The notes below the pieces were generated by a model that searched no databases, was not told the origin of the DNA, and worked only from the letters and a program-made list of their open reading frames with translations. Made by a program: the position numbers and the translations under genes. Of a stretch of DNA of 64,000 bases, positions 18,677 to 47,971 are shown one piece after another. Numbering within the stretch: position 1 is the stretch's first letter; every line of letters starts with the position of its first letter. The DNA comes from Actinomycetes bacterium (lineage in GTDB: Bacteria > Actinomycetota > Actinomycetes > Actinomycetales > Cellulomonadaceae), in the NCBI GenBank assembly GCA_021778635.1, contig JAJYCD010000004.1, forward strand, positions 17,210 through 81,209. The letters run 5' to 3'.

Positions 18677-20188
18677 TCACCAGTCTGCAGGCTGGTAGTC
18701 CTTGAGGAAACACCCGACGAGGTCCTCGCCCGCCTCGCCCCGGACGATCGGGTCGTAGACGCGTGCTGCCCCGTCGACCAGGTCGAGCGGGGCGTGGAAC
18801 CCCTCCTCGGCCAGACGCACCTTGGTCGGGTGCGGGCGCTCGTCGGTGATCCACCCGGTGTCGACGCTCGTCATGAGGATGCCGTCCTCGGCGAGCTCCG
18901 CGGCACTCGTCCGGGTGAGCATGTTGACGGCGGCCTTGGCCATGTTGGTGTGCGGGTGACCCGGTCCCTTGTAGCCGCGCGAGAAGACGCCCTCCATGGC
19001 GGAGACGTTGACGACATAGGTGCGACGGGCGGTGGACGCCCGCATCGCCCCGCGCAGGCGACTGACCAGGATGAACGGCGCCGTCTGGTTGCAGAGCTGG
19101 ACCTCGAGCAGCTCCATCGGGTCGACCTCGTCGACGGTCGCGACCCAGCTGTTGGTGTGGTGCGTGTCGGGGACGAGGCCGCCCGCGTCGATCGACGTGC
19201 CGGCCACGAGTCGGCTCAGTGAGGCGGCCTCGGCGGTCAGTGCCTGAGCCGTCACCTCGTGCGCCGCCTCGATCGCGAGCGACGGGCTCGTGAGGGTGGT
19301 CACCGAGCCTGCGAGTGCGCGGGGGTGCGCGTCGCTGGTGCGTCCCAGGTTCGTGATCTGCGGCAACGGGCCGTCAGGGAGCGGGGTGAGCTCGGCGTCC
19401 ACGAGCCGTGCGTACGATCCGGGCGACCGGCGCACCGTCTGCGCGGCGTTGTTGATCAGGATGTCGAGCGGTCCGGCCGCAGCCACGGCGTCCGCGAGGG
19501 CGACGACCTGCGTCGGGTCGCGCAGGTCGATGCCCACGATCGACAGCCGGTCGAGCCACTCCGGGCTGTCGGCGAGGGCGGCGAACCGACGCGCGGCGTC
19601 GCGCGGGAACCGCGTGGTGATCGTCAGCTGCGCGCCGTCGCGCAGGAGCCGCAGCGCGATGTACATGCCGATCTTGGCCCGTCCGCCGGTGAGCAGGCCT
19701 CGGCGGCCGGTGAGGTCGGTGCGTGCCTCGCGCTTCGCGTGGTTGAACGCCGCGCAGGTCGGGCACAGCTGGTGGTAGAACGCATCGACCTCGGTGTAGA
19801 GCTGCTTGCAGATGTAGCACGGGCGTGCGCGCATCAGCGTCCCGGCGGTCGCCCCGCGTGCGGAGGAGACGAGCGGGATCCCCTGGGTCTCGTCGTCGAT
19901 CCGACCCGGGCTGCCGGTGGCGGTGGCCGCGACCACCGCGCGGTCGGCGCTGCTCACGGTCTCCCGCTTCTCGGTGCGACGCTGCTTCTTGACCGCCTTG
20001 AAGAGCCCCGACGTCGCGCGCCGCGCCACCGCGTGGTGCGGGTGGTCGTGCGGGAGCTCGACGAGGGCGTCGACGACCCGCAGGAACGTGGCGAGATCGG
20101 CCGGGTCGATGCCGGTCGCGGGCTCGGGCCCCTCCGACGGGGCGCCGTCGACGGCGTCGAGAGGGGCGCGCGCCTGCGTGGGTGTCAT
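18677..20188 (-). CDS. SDR-family oxidoreductase with N-terminal four-Cys zinc-ribbon-like segment
   Basis: RPCYICKQLYTEVDAFYHQLCPTCAAFNHAKREARTDLTGRRGLLTGGRAKIGMYIALRLLRDGA...LDILINNAAQT; SDR NAD-binding and NNA motifs. Confidence 0.82.
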   Translation of the reverse strand: MTPTQARAPLDAVDGAPSEGPEPATGIDPADLATFLRVVDALVELPHDHPHHAVARRATSGLFKAVKKQRRTEKRETVSSADRAVVAATATGSPGRIDDETQGIPLVSSARGATAGTLMRARPCYICKQLYTEVDAFYHQLCPTCAAFNHAKREARTDLTGRRGLLTGGRAKIGMYIALRLLRDGAQLTITTRFPRDAARRFAALADSPEWLDRLSIVGIDLRDPTQVVALADAVAAAGPLDILINNAAQTVRRSPGSYARLVDAELTPLPDGPLPQITNLGRTSDAHPRALAGSVTTLTSPSLAIEAAHEVTAQALTAEAASLSRLVAGTSIDAGGLVPDTHHTNSWVATVDEVDPMELLEVQLCNQTAPFILVSRLRGAMRASTARRTYVVNVSAMEGVFSRGYKGPGHPHTNMAKAAVNMLTRTSAAELAEDGILMTSVDTGWITDERPHPTKVRLAEEGFHAPLDLVDGAARVYDPIVRGEAGEDLVGCFLKDYQPADW

Positions 20189-21066: not shown

Positions 21067-21082
21067 ATACCCCCGAGGGTAT
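21067..21082. promoter_or_regulatory. CstR/CsoR-family operator-like palindrome, site 1 (ATACCCCCGAGGGTAT)
   Basis: 16-bp near-palindrome 22 bp upstream of the trxA ATG; shares ATACCC...GGGTAT with three other sites in the window. Confidence 0.8.
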
Positions 21083-21104: not shown

Positions 21105-21473
21105 ATGTCCACCGTCAACCTGACCGAGAGCGTCTTCGAGAAGACGGTCGTCGACAACGAGATCGTTCTCGTCGACTTCTGGGCCGCGTGGTGCGGGCCG
21201 TGCCGGATGTTCGCACCGGTGTTCGAGAAGGCGTCCGAGACGCACACGGACATCGTGTTCGCGAAGGTCGACACCGAGGCCGAGCGGTCGCTCGCCGCGC
21301 AGGCGGGCATCTCCTCGATCCCGACGCTGATGGCGTTCCGCGACGGGATCCTCGTGTTCTCGCAGCCGGGAGCTCTCCCGGGCGAGTCTCTCGAGCAGCT
21401 CATCACGGGGATCCGCGGTCTCGACATGGACGACGTCCGGGCCAAGGTCGCCGCCCACAGCGCGGCGTCCTGA
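21105..21473 (+). CDS. trxA: Thioredoxin
   Basis: 122 aa; VLVDFWAAWCGPCRMFAPVFEKAS with WCGPC active site and ISSIPTLMAFRDG cis-Pro. Confidence 0.95.
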   Translation: MSTVNLTESVFEKTVVDNEIVLVDFWAAWCGPCRMFAPVFEKASETHTDIVFAKVDTEAERSLAAQAGISSIPTLMAFRDGILVFSQPGALPGESLEQLITGIRGLDMDDVRAKVAAHSAAS

Positions 21474-21577: not shown

Positions 21578-21841
21578 ATGGAGCTCGACCCGGCCGAGAT
21601 GGGCAAGGTCATCAACCGGCTCAAGAGAGCGCAGGGTCAGCTCGGCGCCGTTCTTCGCATGCTCGAGGAGGGCAGGAACTGCGAGGACATCGTCACGCAG
21701 CTCTCGGCGGTGAGCCGCGCCCTGGACCGCGCCGGCTTCGCGATCATCGCGACCGGCATGCGTCAGTGCCTCATCGAGTCGGACGGCCAGGAGACGCTGG
21801 ACGTCCAGAAGCTCGAGAAGCTCTTCCTCTCGTTGGCGTGA
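21578..21841 (+). CDS. cstR: CsoR/CstR-family (DUF156) transcriptional repressor, CstR-like
   Basis: 87 aa; INRLKRAQGQLGAVLRMLEEGRNCEDIVTQLSAVSRALDRAGFAIIATGMRQCL; two Cys 29 residues apart, with Gly where Cu(I)-CsoR has its ligand His. Confidence 0.82.
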   Translation: MELDPAEMGKVINRLKRAQGQLGAVLRMLEEGRNCEDIVTQLSAVSRALDRAGFAIIATGMRQCLIESDGQETLDVQKLEKLFLSLA

Positions 21842-22470
21842 CGCAGCCGAGCCGATCCATGGACTCCGCCGGTTGGGATGCCCGCTACGCGGGCACGGAT
21901 CTCGTCTGGTCGCCCGAGCCGAACGTCTGGGCGGTCGAGGTTCTCGGCGGCCGTGCGCCCGGAGCGGCTCTCGATCTCGGTACCGGTGAGGGGCGCCACG
22001 CCCTGTGGCTCGCCCAGCACGGCTGGGACGTGACGGCGGTCGACTTCTCCGGCGAGGCGATCCGCAAGGCGAAGGCCGTGCAGGCCGATCGTGCGCCGCA
22101 GACCGCGGGACGCATCACCTGGCTCCAGGAGGACGTCGTCCGCTACGTCCCTCCGGCGCGAGCGAGCGCGGCCGTCATGATGATGTACCTGCACCTGGAC
22201 GCCGTGTCGCGCCGGGTCGTCGTGCGCAACGCCGCGTCGGCCCTCGCGGTCGGCGGGGTGCTCCTGGTCGTCGGGCACGACGCCACGAACCCGACCGAGG
22301 GCTCGGGGGGTCCGTCGAACCCGGACGTGCTCTTCAGCGCAGCAGACGTCGTGGTCGATCTCGCCGGGCTCCCGGGCCTGACGGTCACGCGCGCCGAGCG
22401 GGTGCGGCGTGCCGTCGGAGCGGGTCGGCCGGCTCTGGACGCGCTGGTCGAGGTCATCCGCACCGCATGA
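21838..22470 (+). CDS. Class I SAM-dependent methyltransferase
   Basis: ALDLGTGEGRHALWLAQHGWDVTAVDFS motif I and following motifs; GTG start overlaps the repressor stop (GTGA). Confidence 0.85.
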   Translation: MTQPSRSMDSAGWDARYAGTDLVWSPEPNVWAVEVLGGRAPGAALDLGTGEGRHALWLAQHGWDVTAVDFSGEAIRKAKAVQADRAPQTAGRITWLQEDVVRYVPPARASAAVMMMYLHLDAVSRRVVVRNAASALAVGGVLLVVGHDATNPTEGSGGPSNPDVLFSAADVVVDLAGLPGLTVTRAERVRRAVGAGRPALDALVEVIRTA

Positions 22471-22555: not shown

Positions 22556-22571
22556 ATACCCCCCGGGGTAT
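22556..22571. promoter_or_regulatory. CstR/CsoR-family operator-like palindrome, site 2 (ATACCCCCCGGGGTAT)
   Basis: 16-bp near-perfect palindrome 37 bp upstream of the miniprotein ATG at 22609. Confidence 0.8.
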
Positions 22572-22608
22572 GCTTGGACCATCAGACACCACCACTGAGG
22601 AGTGAGCT

Positions 22609-22725
22609 ATGTGTAGTCCGGCCCGTTGCAGCCGCTGTGGCAAGGTCACCTGGTCCGGCTGCGGGATGCACGTCGACGCCGTGATGGCGAACGTCGAGCC
22701 GTCGCAGCGTTGCACCTGCCGCTGA
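22609..22725 (+). CDS. 38-aa Cys-rich miniprotein (six Cys), MCSPARCSRCGKVTWSGCGMHVDAVMANVEPSQRCTCR
   Basis: ATG preceded by GAGGAGTGAG RBS-like sequence, downstream of operator site 2; below the ORF-track size cut-off; resembles small conserved CxxCGKxTWxGCGxHV proteins I recall from other actinobacteria. Confidence 0.75.
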   Translation: MCSPARCSRCGKVTWSGCGMHVDAVMANVEPSQRCTCR

Positions 22726-22775
22726 TCCACCGGCGGTCCGTCGGCGCCCCGGGTGCCGTCACGGACCCGAGTTCG

Positions 22776-23180
22776 GTGCTGACCGGACGCGAGGCGTTCC
22801 TGGCGAAGCTCCAGGAGCGCGAGCAGATGGCCCGTGAGCGGCTCAGCGCCGCCACGGGCCATCTGTCTCTCTGCCGGGTCCCGGCCGCGGCGGGTGATGT
22901 CAACGGCGTGCGCGGCGTCGACGGGCCCGGCGCGCCGGGCGTCGAGGCGCGCAGCGCGAAGTACCACGAGGGCGCGGCGGTCGCGCTGGCCGACGTGCGC
23001 CGCGCCGTCCGGTCGAGGCAGGACGACGAGGTCCGCTCGGCGATCGCCGCAGTTCGGTCGACCTGGCGCGCGCAGGTCGACCTGCCCGGCCGTCGTTCGA
23101 CGGCCTGGGTCGACTATCTCGAGGGCGGCCGCGACGCCCTCGACCGGCTCGACGAGCTCGAGGACAAGGACATGTCATGA
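22776..23180 (+). CDS. Hypothetical protein (start uncertain)
   Basis: GTG-initiated frame ending in a 4-bp overlap with the next CDS; C-terminal part (YHEGAAVALADVRRAVRS...WRAQVDLPGRRSTAWVDYLEGGRDALDRLDELE) looks coding. Confidence 0.5.
   Translation: MLTGREAFLAKLQEREQMARERLSAATGHLSLCRVPAAAGDVNGVRGVDGPGAPGVEARSAKYHEGAAVALADVRRAVRSRQDDEVRSAIAAVRSTWRAQVDLPGRRSTAWVDYLEGGRDALDRLDELEDKDMS
22824..22865 (+). other. Strong RNA hairpin, possible terminator/attenuator after the Cys-rich miniprotein
   Basis: CAGATGGCCCGTG-a-GCGGC-TCAGC-GCCGC-CACGGGCCATCTG: 13 + 5 bp perfect stem with one bulged A and 5-nt loop, followed by TCTCT. Confidence 0.65.
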
Positions 23181-23599
23181 ACCCGCTGCAGACCGCGCCG
23201 CGCCCGGTGCCGCCACGGCGCCTCGTCGTCGCCGGCAGGTGGCCGCGCCGCCGGCTGCTCGCGGGCCTCGTCGCCGCGCCCGTCGTGGGTGCGGCGCTGA
23301 TCGCCGTGGGCGGCGGGCTGCCCGGTCCGGTCGGGTGGACGGTCCTCGTCGGTGTGGCCGCCGTCATCGGCGCCGCGACGCTCGCCAGCTACGTGCCGAT
23401 GCGGGGGGCGGGTCGGCGCCTGGACATCGGCTGCACCCCGTGCGCCGTCGTCGCCGCACTGACCCTCGTGGGCGCCGCGGGGGTCCTCGGTGGATCGGCG
23501 CACGACGTCGCGTCCGCCGGGCTCGCCGTGGGCATCGTCGCATTCGGCCTCCTGCAGCGCATGACCGACCCGGAGACGTGCCCCGTCCCGCCTCGCTGA
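23177..23599 (+). CDS. Hypothetical integral membrane protein
   Basis: 140 aa, about 4 hydrophobic segments; ATG overlaps the preceding stop (ATGA). Confidence 0.65.
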   Translation: MNPLQTAPRPVPPRRLVVAGRWPRRRLLAGLVAAPVVGAALIAVGGGLPGPVGWTVLVGVAAVIGAATLASYVPMRGAGRRLDIGCTPCAVVAALTLVGAAGVLGGSAHDVASAGLAVGIVAFGLLQRMTDPETCPVPPR

Positions 23600-23763: not shown

Positions 23764-25509
23764 TCACAGGCCCTGGTGGACGGCCTGGAGCGTGAGCCAC
23801 CCGCCCGACAGGTTGCGGGCCTTGAAGCCCTCACCCAGCAGGATCCTGGTGGCGAGATAGGACCGTACGCCGCTTGCGCAGTGCACGCTGACGTCGCGAC
23901 CGGCGGCAGCCGCTCGCACCTCCGCGAGCCGCTCCCGCAGCTCGGTGTGCGGGATGTTGAGCACGCCGTCGAGATGCCCGTGCGCGTACTCGCCCCGGGA
24001 CCGGACGTCGAGGATGAGCGTGTTCTCGGTCGCGTCCTCGAGATCCCAGGCCTGCCACTGCGGCATCGTGCCGTCGAGCGCGTTCTGCGCCACGAACCCG
24101 AGCATGTTGACCGGGTCCTTCGCCGACCCGTACGGCGGGGCATAGGCCAGCTCGAGCTCGGCGAGGTCCTCGGCCGTCATCCCGGCCCGGATCGCTGTCG
24201 CGAGCACGTCGATCCGCTTGTCCACCCCCGCGCGCCCGACGGCCTGAGCCCCGAGGAGCGTGCCGTCAGGGGCGAAGCTGGCGACCAGGTGGACCTGCTC
24301 GGACCCCGGGTAGTACCCGGCGTGGTCGCCGGGGTGGATGTGGACGACCTCGTGGGCGAGACCCGCACGGCGCAGCGTCGCCTGGTTCGCCCCCGTCGTG
24401 GCGGCCGTGAGGCCGAAGACCCGGACGATCGCGGTGCTGAGCACGGACGCCTGGCGGATGGTGGTGTGCCCGCACATCGAGTCGGCGGCTCGCCGGCCCT
24501 GCCGGTTCGCAGGACCCGCGAGCGGGACCGGACCGGTCGCACCGGTGATCGCGTGCGTGATCTCGACCGCGTCGCCGACCGCCCAGATGTGCGGGTCGGA
24601 GGTCCGCTGGTCCGCGTCCACCCGGATGGCGCCGGTCGGACCGAGGTCGAGCCCGGCGTCGCGCGCCAGAGCGCTCGCCGGCCGGACGCCGACATTGACG
24701 ACGACGAGGTCGGCCGGCAGCTCGGTGCCGTCCGACAGCCTCACGACCACGGCACCGCTCGAGCTCTTGCCGTCCCACTCGTGCGCGGACTCGATCGGTG
24801 CGATCGACTGCGCGGAGACGCCGAGGTGCAGGTCGACGCCATGGGCGTCGAGCTCTGCGGAGAGCAAGGGGGCGAGCTCGGCGTCGATCGGCGGGAGGAC
24901 GTGGTCGGCCAGCTCGACGAGGTGCACGGTGACCCCGCGCGAGGTGAGTGCCTCGACCGCCTCGAGTCCGATGAAGCCCGCACCGACGACGACCGCGTGC
25001 GGGGGTTCCTCGGGTGTCCGGGTCGCGAGCATCGCGTGGACGCTGTCGCGCACCGCGTCGACGTCCGGGATGGTGCGGAGCGAGTGGACGGCCGGGTGGT
25101 CGAGCCCCTCGATGGGGGGGCGGACCCCCACGGCCCCGGGCGAGAGGAGCAGGGCGTCGTAGGGGAGCGTGTACGAGTCCTGCTCCGTCTGCACGGTGAC
25201 CTGCCGGGCCTCGCGATCGATCGCGCTGACCCGGTGCCCGGTGCGCACGTCGAGGTTGAGCGTGGACGCGAGCGAGGCGGCGGTGTGCAGCAGCAGCGAC
25301 TCGCGCTTCACGATCTCACCCGCGAGGTGGTACGGCAGCCCGCAGTTCGCGAACGACACGTAGTCGCCCTGCTCGAGGACGACGATCTGCGCCCGCTCGT
25401 CGAGGCGTCGCGCACGCGCGGCGGCGCTCATGCCGCCGGCGACGCCGCCGACGATCACGATCCGCCGGGGGTCCGCCGTGCTGGGCGTGGTCACGGTCGG
25501 CACGCTCAT
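23764..25509 (-). CDS. FAD-dependent CoA-disulfide reductase / persulfide reductase with C-terminal rhodanese domain
   Basis: RIVIVGGVAGGMSAAARARRLDE...YVSFANCGLPYHLAGEI single active Cys; C-terminal LILDVRSRGEYAHGHLDG...VHCASGVRSYLA rhodanese. Confidence 0.9.
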   Translation of the reverse strand: MSVPTVTTPSTADPRRIVIVGGVAGGMSAAARARRLDERAQIVVLEQGDYVSFANCGLPYHLAGEIVKRESLLLHTAASLASTLNLDVRTGHRVSAIDREARQVTVQTEQDSYTLPYDALLLSPGAVGVRPPIEGLDHPAVHSLRTIPDVDAVRDSVHAMLATRTPEEPPHAVVVGAGFIGLEAVEALTSRGVTVHLVELADHVLPPIDAELAPLLSAELDAHGVDLHLGVSAQSIAPIESAHEWDGKSSSGAVVVRLSDGTELPADLVVVNVGVRPASALARDAGLDLGPTGAIRVDADQRTSDPHIWAVGDAVEITHAITGATGPVPLAGPANRQGRRAADSMCGHTTIRQASVLSTAIVRVFGLTAATTGANQATLRRAGLAHEVVHIHPGDHAGYYPGSEQVHLVASFAPDGTLLGAQAVGRAGVDKRIDVLATAIRAGMTAEDLAELELAYAPPYGSAKDPVNMLGFVAQNALDGTMPQWQAWDLEDATENTLILDVRSRGEYAHGHLDGVLNIPHTELRERLAEVRAAAAGRDVSVHCASGVRSYLATRILLGEGFKARNLSGGWLTLQAVHQGL

Positions 25510-25898
25510 CGGCGCACGTCTCCACCGGCGCGCTGCCAGGCGGCCATCCCGCCCGAGACGCTCGTCGCGTCGAAGCCGAGGGTGCGCAGGTGCTTCGTCG
25601 CGGTGCGGGAGCGCATGCCGCTCGCACACACGACGACGACGGTGCGTCCCTTGTGCAGGCGCTTGGGGGCCTGGTCGATGTTCCCGAGGGCGATGTGGAT
25701 GGCGCCCGGCGCGTGCCCGGTCTTCCACTCAGCGGTCTCGCGGACGTCGAGCATCGTCGCGCCGTCGCGCACGAGCTCGATGGCGCGTGCGGCGTTCACG
25801 GTCGGCTTGACGCGACCGTCGTCCCCGCCGCCGCCGAAGAGGCTCTTGATGCGGTCGAGGAAGGACGGGGCAGGGGCCGGGCTGGGTGAGGTGGTCAA
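25506..25898 (-). CDS. Rhodanese-like domain protein
   Basis: TTG start preceded by GGAGA; MLDVRETAEWKTGHAPGAIHI...VVCASGMRSRTATKHL; stop overlaps the downstream CDS start. Confidence 0.85.
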   Translation of the reverse strand: MTTSPSPAPAPSFLDRIKSLFGGGGDDGRVKPTVNAARAIELVRDGATMLDVRETAEWKTGHAPGAIHIALGNIDQAPKRLHKGRTVVVVCASGMRSRTATKHLRTLGFDATSVSGGMAAWQRAGGDVRR

Positions 25899-25925: not shown

Positions 25926-25941
25926 ATACCCAGGGGGGTAT
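25926..25941. promoter_or_regulatory. CstR/CsoR-family operator-like palindrome, site 3 (ATACCCAGGGGGGTAT)
   Basis: 27 bp upstream of the TTG start of the rhodanese at 25898 (minus strand). Confidence 0.78.
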
Positions 25942-43173: not shown

Positions 43174-44678
43174 GCGCCGGCAGTCCCGGCCGGTCTGCCG
43201 GCAGGGTCACCGGGAGGGCAGCGGGGAGGGTTCCCGGAGTCGGCCCGTTGGGGCGGTGGATGCTCCTGGCCTTCGTCCTGGTGGCGGTGTCGTCCGTCGT
43301 CGTCCTCACCGTCGCCGCACTCATCGGCGTCGGGCAGGGCGTCGAGGCGGTCCAGCAGTCCGAGAGGGTGCAGAAGGCGACGGCGGCGGCGGGTGCCGCC
43401 GGTGCGGCCTATCAGGCCGCGGGCGGCTGGGACGGTGCGGACCTGACGGGCAGCAGCGCGATCGCGCAGGCGGCCGGTGCGCGCCTGTTCGTGCTCGACC
43501 AGGACGGCAGGTCCGTCCGGGTCGGTGCCGGGATGGGTCAGGGCGCAGGCGGGCCGGGCCCGGGTGCCCAAGGCGGTGCCTCCGGAGGTGCGCAGAGCAG
43601 CGCGCAAGGCGCCGTGACCGCGCCCGTGGTGGTCGACGGCGTGACCGTCGGCACCGTGCGCCTGATGTTCGGGGCGTCGTCGGGCACGCGTGCGCGTGAC
43701 ATCGCCTGGTCCTGGATCGCCGTGGCCGCGGCGGTCGCGCTCGTCGTGGCGGTGGTCGCGAGCTGGTGGGTGACGCGGGTGCTGACCAGGCCGATCGACG
43801 CGATGACGACGGCGGCGCGGCAGTTCGCCGCGGGTGACCGCGAGGCGCGCACGCGCGAGAGCGGACCGGGCGAGCTCGGTGAGCTCGCGCACGCGTTCAA
43901 CGGCATGGCCGACACGGTCGCTCGTTCCGAGCGGGACCGCCGCAACCTGACCGCGGACGTCGCTCACGAGCTCCGCACCCCGCTGGCCGTGCTGCAGGCC
44001 GGCCTCGAGGAGCTCCGCGACGGACTCGTCGAACCGACGTCGGAGGGGCTCGCGCGGCTCCACGACCAGTCGCTCCGGCTCGGCCGGATCGTGCAGGACC
44101 TCGCCGAGCTCTCCGCCGCGGAGGAGCTCTCCGCGGCCGCCGAGTCGAGCGCGAAGCGCGAGGAGGTCGACCTGAGCCGAGTCGTCGCCGATGCGCTCGC
44201 GGGGCACGATCCCCAGCTGCGAGCCGCCGGTCTCGTCGTCGTGCGCGAGCTGGCCGGTCCGGCCCTGGTGCGCGCCGACTCCGACCGGCTGCACCAGGCG
44301 GTCGGCAACCTGCTGTCGAACGTCGCGCGCTACTGCCGTCCAGGTGACGAGGCCCGGGTCACGGTACGGCGCGACGGAAGCGACGTCGTGCTCGTGGTGG
44401 CCGACACCGGTCCCGGGCTCGCGGCGGACGAGGTTCCGCATGTCTTCGACCGGCTGTGGCGCGGGCACGGCACCGAGCACATCGCCGGCAACGGCATCGG
44501 CCTGGCGGTGGTCCGGGAGATCGTGGTCGCGCACGGCGGGACCATCGACGCGCACGCGCCCGCCGGCGGCGGGCTGACGGTCACGATCCGGCTGCCGGCC
44601 GCTCCGGTGCAGGGCTCTTCGCGCCGACGGGGCACAGGGTCTGACCGCGCAGCCGGAACACCAGCGCACCGGCCGTGA
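43170..44678 (+). CDS. Sensor histidine kinase (HAMP)
   Basis: HAMP region, LTADVAHELRTPLAVLQAGLEEL H-box, DTGPGLAADEVPHVFDRLWRGHG N/G boxes; overlaps the response regulator by 4 bp. Confidence 0.93.
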   Translation: MSAGSPGRSAGRVTGRAAGRVPGVGPLGRWMLLAFVLVAVSSVVVLTVAALIGVGQGVEAVQQSERVQKATAAAGAAGAAYQAAGGWDGADLTGSSAIAQAAGARLFVLDQDGRSVRVGAGMGQGAGGPGPGAQGGASGGAQSSAQGAVTAPVVVDGVTVGTVRLMFGASSGTRARDIAWSWIAVAAAVALVVAVVASWWVTRVLTRPIDAMTTAARQFAAGDREARTRESGPGELGELAHAFNGMADTVARSERDRRNLTADVAHELRTPLAVLQAGLEELRDGLVEPTSEGLARLHDQSLRLGRIVQDLAELSAAEELSAAAESSAKREEVDLSRVVADALAGHDPQLRAAGLVVVRELAGPALVRADSDRLHQAVGNLLSNVARYCRPGDEARVTVRRDGSDVVLVVADTGPGLAADEVPHVFDRLWRGHGTEHIAGNGIGLAVVREIVVAHGGTIDAHAPAGGGLTVTIRLPAAPVQGSSRRRGTGSDRAAGTPAHRP

Positions 44679-45138
44679 GCGCGACGGCGGCGGCCGCCAG
44701 GAACGGCTGCACGGGAGCGAACCAGGTGAGGGCCCCGGAGTACCCGAGTGCAAGAAGGGCGAGCTTGTTGCACACCGGGCACCCGACGGCGAACCAGGTG
44801 AGGACGCCACCGGCGATCCCGAACCGGCTCGGGGCCGCCGCGGCGGCGTCGAGCTCCTCGGGTGCGTCGTCCGTGCGGGCGCGCACGTACGTGGCCGCGA
44901 GCATGCCCGCGAGCAGCGACGAGACGATCCACACGGGGTAGCTCCAGGCCGTGACAGGTACCTCGCGGCCGAACACCGGGTTCGGGATGAGCACCGTCGG
45001 GATGCCGATGAGCAGCGCGAAGCCGATGCTGAAGCCTGCGGCGGCGACGTACTGGCGCGTGGTCCAGGACCGCAGCGCCTGCATGCTCGCGTCGAGCGAT
45101 CGTCGTGGCTCGGCACGGGCAGGGGCGAGCGGGATCAT
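44581..45138 (-). CDS. Integral membrane protein with CPVCNK motif
   Basis: 185 aa, about 4 TM segments, FAVGCPVCNKLALLALGYSGALTWFAP; divergent from the rhodanese operon. Confidence 0.75.
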   Translation of the reverse strand: MIPLAPARAEPRRSLDASMQALRSWTTRQYVAAAGFSIGFALLIGIPTVLIPNPVFGREVPVTAWSYPVWIVSSLLAGMLAATYVRARTDDAPEELDAAAAAPSRFGIAGGVLTWFAVGCPVCNKLALLALGYSGALTWFAPVQPFLAAAAVALTAGALVFRLRGQTLCPVGAKSPAPERPAAGS

Positions 45139-45242
45139 GCGACCTCCAGAGCGGTGGGGCGGGGGCGACGCAAGGGGCTGCTGTCCGGTGTCCCGGGTCC
45201 GTCCGGAATGCGGGCGGTCGGTTCGTGCTTGTACTCTCCAAG

Positions 45243-45258
45243 ATACCCCAGGGGGTAT
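45243..45258. promoter_or_regulatory. CstR/CsoR-family operator-like palindrome, site 4 (ATACCCCAGGGGGTAT)
   Basis: 26 bp upstream of the rhodanese ATG at 45285, within a divergent intergenic region. Confidence 0.82.
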
Positions 45259-45284
45259 ACACGCGAACCCAAGGAGCCAGATCC

Positions 45285-45608
45285 ATGTCTGAAGTCGTCG
45301 TTGACGCGTTCGCCGCGGCCCACGCGGACGGGGCATTCGTCCTCGATGTCCGCGAGCCCTACGAGTACGTCGGTGGCCACGTCCCCGGTGCTCGCCTCGT
45401 GCCGGTCGGCCAGGTGCCGGCACGGCTGCAGGAGATCCCGCGCAACGAGCGCGTCTACGTCGTGTGCGCGAGCGGGAACCGCAGCCGCGGGGTGACGGAC
45501 CTGCTCCGGAGCGCGGGCTTCGACGCCTACTCCGTGATCGGCGGCACGAGCGCGTGGATCGGCTCCGGGCGTCCCGTGGTGGCCGGTCAGCACCCGAACG
45601 CCGCCTGA
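45285..45608 (+). CDS. Single-domain rhodanese
   Basis: FVLDVREPYEYVGGHVPGARLVPVGQVP...VYVVCASGNRSRGVTDLLRSAGFDAYSVIGGTSAW. Confidence 0.9.
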   Translation: MSEVVVDAFAAAHADGAFVLDVREPYEYVGGHVPGARLVPVGQVPARLQEIPRNERVYVVCASGNRSRGVTDLLRSAGFDAYSVIGGTSAWIGSGRPVVAGQHPNAA

Positions 45609-45692
45609 CCGCACGGCCGCGCGGCGCACCGTCGACCTGTGTCCGTCGCGATCCCCTCACGATCCCTCCCGTCTGAGAAGGAACACGTCCTC

Positions 45693-47069
45693 ATGAGCCC
45701 CAGCATCATCGTGATCGACACGCCGTCCCTCGGCGACCGCAGCTACCTCGTGCACGACGGCCAGGTCGGGTTCGTCGTCGACCCCCAGCGGGACACCGAC
45801 CGGGTCCTCGCCGCCGCTGCCGACGCCGGCATCCGGATCACCCATGTCCTCGAGACGCACATCCACAACGACTACGTCACCGGTGGGTACGCCCTCGCCC
45901 AGCAGACGGGCGCGGAGTACCTGGTCAACGCCGACGACGTCGTCTCGTTCGACCGGGTGCCGGTGCACGACGGCGACCTGATCGACGTCAGCCCGACGCT
46001 GCAGGTGCGCGTGATCCACACGCCCGGTCACACGTTCACCCACCTCTCGTACGCCCTCGAAGGGTCCGAGCCGGTCGTGTTCTCCGGTGGGTCGCTGCTC
46101 TACGGCTCCACCGGGCGTCCCGACCTGCTCGGCGCGTCCCACACGCACGAGCTCGCCCACCACCAGTACGCCTCGGCGCACCGGCTCGCCCACGAGCTCC
46201 CGGACGAGACGCAGGTCATGCCGACCCACGGGTTCGGCAGCTTCTGCTCGGCGACCACGACCACCGCCGGTGCCACCGGGTCCACGATCGGCCAGGAGAA
46301 GCTGTTCAACCCGGCACTGAGCAAGGACGAGGAGGCGTACGTCGCCGAGATCGTGGCCGGGCTCGACGCGTACCCGGCCTACTACGTCCACATGGGTCCC
46401 GCGAACTCCGCCGGACCCGTCGCAGCCGACCTCAGCGCGCCGCAGCAGGCCGACAAGACCGAGCTCCGGCGTCGACTCGACGCGGGGGAGTGGCTCGTCG
46501 ACCTCCGCACCCGGACCGCCTTCGCCGCCGGTCACGTGCCGGGGACGTTCAACGTCGGCCTCGACGGGCAGTTCTCGACCTACCTCGGATGGCTGATCCC
46601 GTGGGGCACCCCGGTCACGCTGCTCGGTGACACGCCGGAGCAGGTGGCGGAGGCCCAGCGCGAGCTGGTGCGGATCGGCATCGACTCGCCGGCCGCCGCA
46701 GCGACCGGCGCGCCCGAGGACTGGACGGACGGCCCGCTCGGGCAGCTCCAGCTCGCGAGCTTCGCCGATCTGGAGCAGGTGCGGCACCACCGCGAGGTCG
46801 TCGTGCTCGACGTGCGGCGCCTGAGCGAGTGGCGCGAGTCGCACATCGACGGGGCGGTCCACATCCCGCTGCACTCGCTGCTCGAACGTCTGGCCGACGT
46901 CCCGCGAGCAGAGATCTGGATCCACTGCGCGGGTGGCTACCGGGCCTCGATCGCCGCGTCGTTCCTCCTGGCGAACGGGCACCACGTCGTCTCGGTCAAC
47001 GGGTCGTTCGCCGAGAGCGCCGCTGCGGCGGGTCTCCCTCTGGTGTCGGAGCTGGTCGCCCAGGCCTGA
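45693..47069 (+). CDS. Persulfide dioxygenase (MBL-fold) fused to two rhodanese domains (CstB-like)
   Basis: HVLETHIHNDYVTGGYALAQQTGAEYLV; HTPGHTFTHLSY; first rhodanese domain lacks the Cys loop, second has WIHCAGGYRASIAASFLLANGHHVVSVNGSF. Confidence 0.9.
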   Translation: MSPSIIVIDTPSLGDRSYLVHDGQVGFVVDPQRDTDRVLAAAADAGIRITHVLETHIHNDYVTGGYALAQQTGAEYLVNADDVVSFDRVPVHDGDLIDVSPTLQVRVIHTPGHTFTHLSYALEGSEPVVFSGGSLLYGSTGRPDLLGASHTHELAHHQYASAHRLAHELPDETQVMPTHGFGSFCSATTTTAGATGSTIGQEKLFNPALSKDEEAYVAEIVAGLDAYPAYYVHMGPANSAGPVAADLSAPQQADKTELRRRLDAGEWLVDLRTRTAFAAGHVPGTFNVGLDGQFSTYLGWLIPWGTPVTLLGDTPEQVAEAQRELVRIGIDSPAAAATGAPEDWTDGPLGQLQLASFADLEQVRHHREVVVLDVRRLSEWRESHIDGAVHIPLHSLLERLADVPRAEIWIHCAGGYRASIAASFLLANGHHVVSVNGSFAESAAAAGLPLVSELVAQA

Positions 47070-47149
47070 ACCCCCGCGACCTCCCGCCCGATCCCACCGC
47101 GGGCGGCGCCGTCCCGGCGCCGTCCGCACCCCCACAGCAAGGACTCCAC

Positions 47150-47971
47150 GTGCTCGCGCTCGTCATCCCCGTCGGTCTGCTCATCGGTCTCAGCCTCGGT
47201 GCGCTCGGTGGCGGAGGGTCGATCCTCGCCGTGCCGGCGTTGGTCTACCTCTTCGGCCAGAGCTCGCACGCGGCGACGACGGGCTCGTTGCTCATCGTGG
47301 GGACGACGTCGCTCGTCGGGGCGCTGCCGCACCGTCGGGCCGGGCGGGTCAGCCTTGCCAAGGGGGTGGTGTTCGGCTTCCTCGGCATCGTGGGGTCCTA
47401 CATCGGGTCACGGTTCTCCACCGCGGTTCCCCAGGACGTCCTGCTCGCCGCCTTCTCGGTGCTGATCCTGTTCGTGGCGATCCTGATGATCCGGCGCCAG
47501 CGCCGGCAGACCGTCCCGGCGGACCGACCGGCGGCGGACCGGACCGTCACGGAGGCCCCAGCGGTCGCCTTCCGCCCTCGCCTCACGTGCGACTGCCGCC
47601 GCGTGGCCAGGATCGTGCTCACGGCGACGACCGTCGGCCTCCTCACCGGCTTCTTCGGGGTCGGCGGCGGCTTCGCCGTGGTCCCCGCGCTCGTGCTCGC
47701 GCTCGGGCTGTCGATGCCGGTGGCCGTCGGCACGTCGCTGCTCGTGATCGGCATCAACAGCGTCACGGCGCTCGCGTTCCGGCTGGACCAGGGCTTCGAC
47801 CTGGACTGGACGGTGATCGGGCTCTTCACCGCCGCTGCCGTGCTCGGCGGACTGCTGGGCAACCGGGTGGTCTCCCGGGTCAACCCGGCACGGCTGAGCC
47901 AGGCGTTCGCGATCCTCCTGGTGGGCGTCGCGCTGTACACCGCTGCGAGGAGCGTCCCGCAGCTGTTCTGA
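47150..47971 (+). CDS. TauE/SafE-family sulfite exporter
   Basis: IPVGLLIGLSLGALGGGGSILAVPALVYLFGQSSHAATTGSLLIVG...GFFGVGGGFAVVPALVLALGLSMPVAVGTSLLVIGINS. Confidence 0.88.
   Translation: MLALVIPVGLLIGLSLGALGGGGSILAVPALVYLFGQSSHAATTGSLLIVGTTSLVGALPHRRAGRVSLAKGVVFGFLGIVGSYIGSRFSTAVPQDVLLAAFSVLILFVAILMIRRQRRQTVPADRPAADRTVTEAPAVAFRPRLTCDCRRVARIVLTATTVGLLTGFFGVGGGFAVVPALVLALGLSMPVAVGTSLLVIGINSVTALAFRLDQGFDLDWTVIGLFTAAAVLGGLLGNRVVSRVNPARLSQAFAILLVGVALYTAARSVPQLF

Follow-up and report, generated by a model that had tools for sequence, protein, structure and literature searches.

CstR and ScCsoR are known to release their operators once their cysteines have been modified by sulfane sulfur. The persulfide regulons under these regulators, namely cst of Staphylococcus aureus and the sco0620 circuit of Streptomyces coelicolor, are the described systems most like the locus presented here, with which they have in common the operator ATACC-N6-GGTAT, experimentally defined as the sulfane-sulfur operator of ScCsoR in S. 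coelicolor (PMC7533328), a regulator devoid of the copper-ligand histidine, and a gene content of rhodanese, dioxygenase and TauE. Nonetheless, the published S. coelicolor circuit, which contains a PDO, a rhodanese and a sulfite transporter, comprises four genes and no microprotein (PMC7533328).

Very small cysteine-rich proteins have also been described under CsoR-family repressors, as is the case of MymT under RicR in Mycobacterium tuberculosis (PMC10470581); however, RicR governs a copper regulon, MymT binds Cu(I) via its many cysteines, and the microprotein described below gives no family match to it and is accompanied by a regulator with different residues. TusA/CstA-type carriers, which pass sulfane sulfur between rhodanese-type enzymes, are alike in the proposed role only, their sequences being unrelated. 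TusA is also larger and zinc-free. In this sense, no Pfam match assigns the microprotein to the TusA-type carriers, although a carrier-like function is possible despite this. A further likeness is confined to the C-terminal tail of many family members (e.g., GFFARLFGR), which resembles the membrane tag of MinD (KGFLKRLFGG; PMC5471200) and the lipid-binding segment of FtsY (EGFFARLKRSLLKT; PMC3189734); unlike in those proteins, the tail sits here on a zinc-knuckle microprotein, its membrane binding is predicted, and the short form encoded in the window lacks it.

The persulfide regulon and its enzymes are thus already known, and the microprotein family, absent from the family libraries searched, appears to be a new component of it. 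Persulfide regulons have so far been studied via their enzymes, and the microprotein would represent an unstudied component of them in a very large phylum, in which the small size of a coherent protein family has let it slip past both gene callers and family libraries. Its candidate cysteine and histidine residues are few. Should it carry sulfane sulfur, this would help to explain how persulfide sulfur is transferred from rhodanese and the CoA-disulfide-reductase-like flavoprotein (CoADR) to the dioxygenase. The window referred to throughout is a 64,000-nucleotide stretch of a Cellulomonadaceae genome; its relevant features are collected in Table 1.

Table 1. Operators, genes and signals of the locus and of the other operator sites in the genome
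Feature	Position	Strand	Evidence or remark
Exact operator before thioredoxin-CstR-methyltransferase	21067..21082		
Thioredoxin	21105..21473	+	PF00085
CsoR-family regulator, CstR type (two Cys, no copper-ligand His)	21578..21841	+	PF02583, E 2.8e-23; residues
SAM-dependent methyltransferase (TehB-like), adjoining CstR	21859..22470	+	
Exact CstR-type operator ATACC-N6-GGTAT before the microprotein	22556..22571		ATACCCCCCGGGGTAT, perfect inverted repeat
Shine-Dalgarno-like GAGGAG	22597..22602	+	6 nt before the microprotein ATG
38-aa six-Cys microprotein gene (short form)	22609..22725	+	Translation, homologues, dN/dS
Small ORF between microprotein and membrane protein	22827..23180	+	No Pfam; start GTG 22776 or ATG 22827
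Hydrophobic membrane-type protein, conserved GC[ST]PC or GCGPC	23177..23599	+	
CoADR-like flavoprotein fused to rhodanese (CoADR-rhodanese)	23764..25509	-	TIGR03385, below its cut-off
Standalone rhodanese, N-terminal amphipathic segment SFLDRIKSLFGG	25506..25898	-	PF00581; probable TTG start 25898
Exact operator before rhodanese-CoADR (- strand genes)	25926..25941		
Hydrophobic protein with GCPVC, divergent from the 45243 operator unit	44581..45660	-	
Exact operator before rhodanese / MBL-rhodanese (persulfide-dioxygenase-like) / TauE	45243..45258		
Fourth window operator with its rhodanese, MBL-rhodanese fusion and TauE exporter	45243..47971		
Fifth exact operator, other contig (locus L167; G000 contig C112)	~7777		Between rhodanese and YgaP-like TM gene

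The microprotein gene and its operator

Translation from the ATG at 22609 (MCSPARCSRCGKVTWSGCGMHVDAVMANVEPSQRCTCR) coincides exactly with the 38-residue, six-cysteine frame put forward in the preliminary description, with cysteines at positions 2, 7, 10, 18, 35 and 37 and a C-terminus reading RCTCR in this short form. The ribosome-binding-like sequence and the operator 37 bp ahead of the gene, both of which had been claimed, were likewise found in place. Two genomes of the same genus encode an identical microprotein and have kept its leader, and the DNA further upstream has diverged. By contrast, the strong hairpin announced downstream did not withstand comparison with shuffled sequences: the region 22716-22810 folds at -48.3 kcal/mol vs -42.7 +/- 3.4 for shuffles, which is not significant (z -1.64), and neither a T-tract nor a terminator-like site was found in it. 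A role of this hairpin as terminator was ruled out by the same figures.

The operator is an exact site of the CstR type named in the preliminary description, and one of only five in the 3.56 Mb genome, every one of which precedes sulfur genes; a reversed control pattern gave 0 sites in the same genome. Its 3' half continues into a -10-like TATGCT (TATACT in both same-genus relatives), and a bound repressor would therefore cover the microprotein promoter. With this operator in its promoter, a CstR-type regulator close by and the company of rhodanese, CoADR, dioxygenase and TauE, the microprotein can be assigned to the CstR regulon with high confidence. At the fifth operator, on another contig, the rhodanese has a lipoprotein-like N-terminus and its partner is a YgaP-like transmembrane protein.

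Distribution and conservation of the family

Relatives of the microprotein were found by tblastn in 69 of 99 related genomes and by profile search in 49 of 398 genomes sampled across the phylum, and a pattern and alignment scan of the GTDB genomes confirmed at least 584 places, which bears out the statement that similar small proteins occur in other actinobacteria. The 80 GTDB matches listed are actinobacterial, one or two metagenome bins excepted, and include the genera Cellulomonas, Actinotalea, Cryobacterium, Arthrobacter, Mycobacterium, Gordonia, Dietzia and Corynebacterium. One family with genomes of 6-10 Mb gave zero matches in the phylum sample, which indicates that the gene is not universal.

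Conservation lies far above chance, since C2, C7, C10, W15, G17, C18, G19, H21 and C35 are invariant in 75 sequences, and dN (0.14-0.20) stays below dS (0.46-0.92) against ten Cellulomonadaceae-like orthologues. The homologues in 69/99 related genomes, together with dN < dS, rule out a chance reading frame and bear out the claim of an overlooked gene, whose reality we regard as practically certain. The microprotein thus represents an actinobacterial family, so far without a name, which is large and strongly conserved and whose members tend to be missed by gene finders. Neither Pfam nor NCBIfam (up to E 10) contains a matching model, a PDB sequence search returned nothing significant, and text searches found no paper describing the family from its motifs (most subscription papers lay outside their scope) and no paper linking small proteins to polysulfide.

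Cysteine-rich leader ORFs are known ahead of mycobacterial sulfur genes, and the microprotein gene is the first of its own unit; translation of the frame, and not its product, might accordingly control the genes downstream. Several observations speak against such a leader peptide, which is disfavoured and to our judgement hardly credible: the spacing of the cysteines is fixed and CC pairs are absent (0/116 homologues), residues other than cysteine are conserved and dN is lower than dS, the gene often sits after CstR, CoADR or rhodanese, and the hairpin is not significant.

Gene company across homologues

The association with sulfur genes recurs in other genomes, and two of the grounds on which the preliminary description would have fallen, poor conservation and missing sulfur-gene company, are thereby countered. 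Among 116 homologues in fetched loci, in counts that treat related loci as independent, a CsoR-family gene lies within 5 kb of 73 and CoADR near 56; as genomes carry about two CsoR-family genes each, only an estimated 0.5% or so would be expected within 5 kb by chance. The exact operator is present within 250 bp upstream in 41/116 homologues vs 5/465 (1%) random 250-bp windows from the same loci. At least one of CsoR-family gene, CoADR or operator accompanies 91 homologues, and the 25 with neither operator, CstR nor CoADR nearby come mostly from outside the order. In a set of 81 loci (80 named genome loci and the window), which is likewise uncorrected for relatedness and overlaps the former set in some species, 63 were linked within 3 kb or by an operator. 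Furthermore, genomes that encode the microprotein tend to contain a second CsoR paralogue (odds ratio of 15.6; p = 2.7e-8, with no correction for the tree), and clustering of the neighbours yielded mostly CoADR, CstR and shadow frames of both. In Rhodococcus jostii RHA1, the copy (RHA1_RS51140, WP_085996134.1) is placed within a sulfur cluster of the plasmid pRHL3.

A small cysteine-rich protein under a CsoR-family operator could also be a copper metallothionein comparable to MymT, whose controlling repressor RicR is a CsoR-family copper sensor (PMC10470581), and among the NCBIfam models it is that of RicR which scores best for the regulator in the window, far below the cut-off of the model. 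Against this, the window regulator reads C, G at the position of the copper-ligand histidine, and C; the histidine is missing, as in CstR, from 72 of the 73 aligned regulators near homologues; the genes behind the operator sites are those of persulfide enzymes rather than copper genes; and no metallothionein model matches the microprotein (Pfam, NCBIfam up to E 10). A copper metallothionein is therefore disfavoured as well, and very improbable.

The hydrophobic membrane-type protein encoded at 23177-23599 (+) gave no Pfam or NCBIfam match and adjoins the microprotein in 11 loci; it is possibly a further unnamed member of the regulon.

Candidate ligands and predicted fold

Across the family alignment, C2, C7, C10, C18, H21 and C35 are invariant, and the seventh Cys/His position is cysteine or histidine in every homologue, the 114 unique sequences reading CxC (61), CxGH (48) or CxGxH (5) at this last ligand position. 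Such an exchange resembles a zinc ligand and not a disulfide partner, and four Cys/His residues in two conserved pairs (C7xxC10, and C35 with C/H) correspond to the pattern of zinc knuckles or zinc ribbons. The zinc binding suggested in the preliminary description gains support from this exchange, and judging from the sequences the microprotein probably holds zinc.

AlphaFold2 predicted a beta hairpin (residues 3-6 and 13-16) followed by a helix from residue 22 in both the short and the long form (mean pLDDT 83 and 75; pTM 0.47-0.49), and a fold search with the model gave no significant match, the best in the PDB having an E of 1.5. The turn of the predicted hairpin carries C7 and C10, and its open end brings C2 and C18 close together. 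Taken together with conservation, this layout would assign C7, C10, C35 and C(H)37 to one zinc and C2, C18 and H21 to a possible reactive group.

These residues can also be read as those of a zinc buffer or chaperone, which would hold the zinc freed when persulfides attack zinc-thiolate sites and would move no sulfur. Seven conserved Cys/His positions with Cys/His exchange at the last would suit such a protein, whose induction would be expected under thiol-attacking stress; yet the conserved W15, G17, G19, V25 and V29 and the predicted fold seem more than a mere metal sponge would need, the neighbours are sulfur enzymes, and zinc transporters are found behind none of the five operator sites. 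We consider a zinc buffer rather unlikely.

The membrane-type tail

Most homologues are long forms, in which a variable linker is followed by the MinD/FtsY-like amphipathic tail that is missing from the microprotein of the window. The pattern [FLW][FLW]x[RKSN][LIV][FLRW] occurs in the last 14 residues of 59/91 long forms vs 16/1263 other ORFs. The amphipathic moment of the tails is not separable from that of shuffles (about 31% of which reach the mean), and the argument for the tail thus depends on the conserved motif. On the other hand, in loci with the short form it is the standalone rhodanese that often begins with a tail-like segment, SFLDRIKSLFGG in the window and, elsewhere, MIDRLRRLFTR, LVTRLRALFSR or LGDRMRRLLGR. 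The strict motif was found in 11 of 42 rhodanese domains from short-form loci vs 0 of 20 from long-form loci, a difference to be taken as a lead and not as a test, because the motif was picked after viewing the sequences and the positives come from related lineages. Five further rhodaneses of short-form loci look similar by eye and fall outside the strict motif. Tail-like rhodaneses were noted at ten loci besides the window. The tether may accordingly be a swappable module, borne either by the tail of the microprotein or by a partner rhodanese, a lead that comes from sequence patterns.

A tail of this kind, present in most members, would also be appropriate for an adaptor or regulator, built on a zinc knuckle, whose task would be to bind CstR, CoADR or rhodanese or to recruit them to the membrane and which would carry no sulfur. 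Its small size and zinc-knuckle pattern point in the same direction, and in 38/116 loci the gene directly adjoins CstR, CoADR or rhodanese. However, the homologues with neither CstR nor CoADR nearby argue against any single obligatory partner, and C2, C18 and H21 are invariant beyond the four ligands that one zinc requires. An adaptor seems unlikely on this balance.

Proposed role in sulfane-sulfur handling

Our tentative preference, at slightly less than an even chance, is for a zinc-knuckle microprotein of the CstR regulon whose leftover conserved thiols handle sulfane sulfur together with the co-regulated enzymes. In the source genome, sulfane sulfur would modify the cysteines of CstR, which would then leave the operator overlapping the -10 box, and the microprotein would be made together with the detoxifying enzymes, as the common operators and the neighbourhood suggest. 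Based on conservation and predicted secondary structure, C7 and C10 with C35 and C/H37 may hold one zinc, and C2, C18 and H21, gathered at the open end of the hairpin, would constitute the candidate reactive site. Such a cytoplasmic protein could accept or hand on sulfane sulfur near the membrane, to which it would be tethered by its own MinD/FtsY-like tail in most homologues or, for the short form, by a tail-bearing rhodanese; its partners would be the co-regulated rhodanese, CoADR-rhodanese, thioredoxin and dioxygenase.

The separate parts of this proposal differ in strength. Since its control and neighbourhood are common with those of the enzymes of reactive-sulfur disposal, the microprotein very probably forms a part of this defence that had been missing. 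That it handles sulfane sulfur directly could well be the case, with somewhat less than even confidence, and if so the site would probably be the membrane; co-regulation is not proof of sulfur chemistry, given that zinc buffering or a protein-protein role would fit it equally. The broadest version, in which zinc-knuckle microproteins are the core sulfane-sulfur carrier at the membrane throughout the phylum and the tether swaps to rhodanese in Cellulomonas-like short-form lineages, is speculative and doubtful.

Paralogues and possibly mobile copies

Some genomes (G135 and G455) have three or four paralogues of the microprotein, several of them with neither CstR nor CoADR nearby (loci L149 and L150), for which a role outside the regulon is possible. 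A homologue with 60% identity over 35 residues is encoded at 19139-19243 of MT835623.1, an unannotated phage-like scaffold from the human gut that is marked UNVERIFIED and may be host DNA.

Plasmids gave 83 matches, the organism names shown being likewise actinobacterial; in the PLSDB table, itself incomplete, most of these copies either lack an annotation or are called "hypothetical protein". Besides the Rhodococcus copy, plasmid pVL1 of Clavibacter michiganensis carries the microprotein gene beside a CsoR-family regulator, a rhodanese and an FAD oxidoreductase. The pVL1 module adjoins recombinase and Mu-type transposase genes, which suggests that it may move between replicons.
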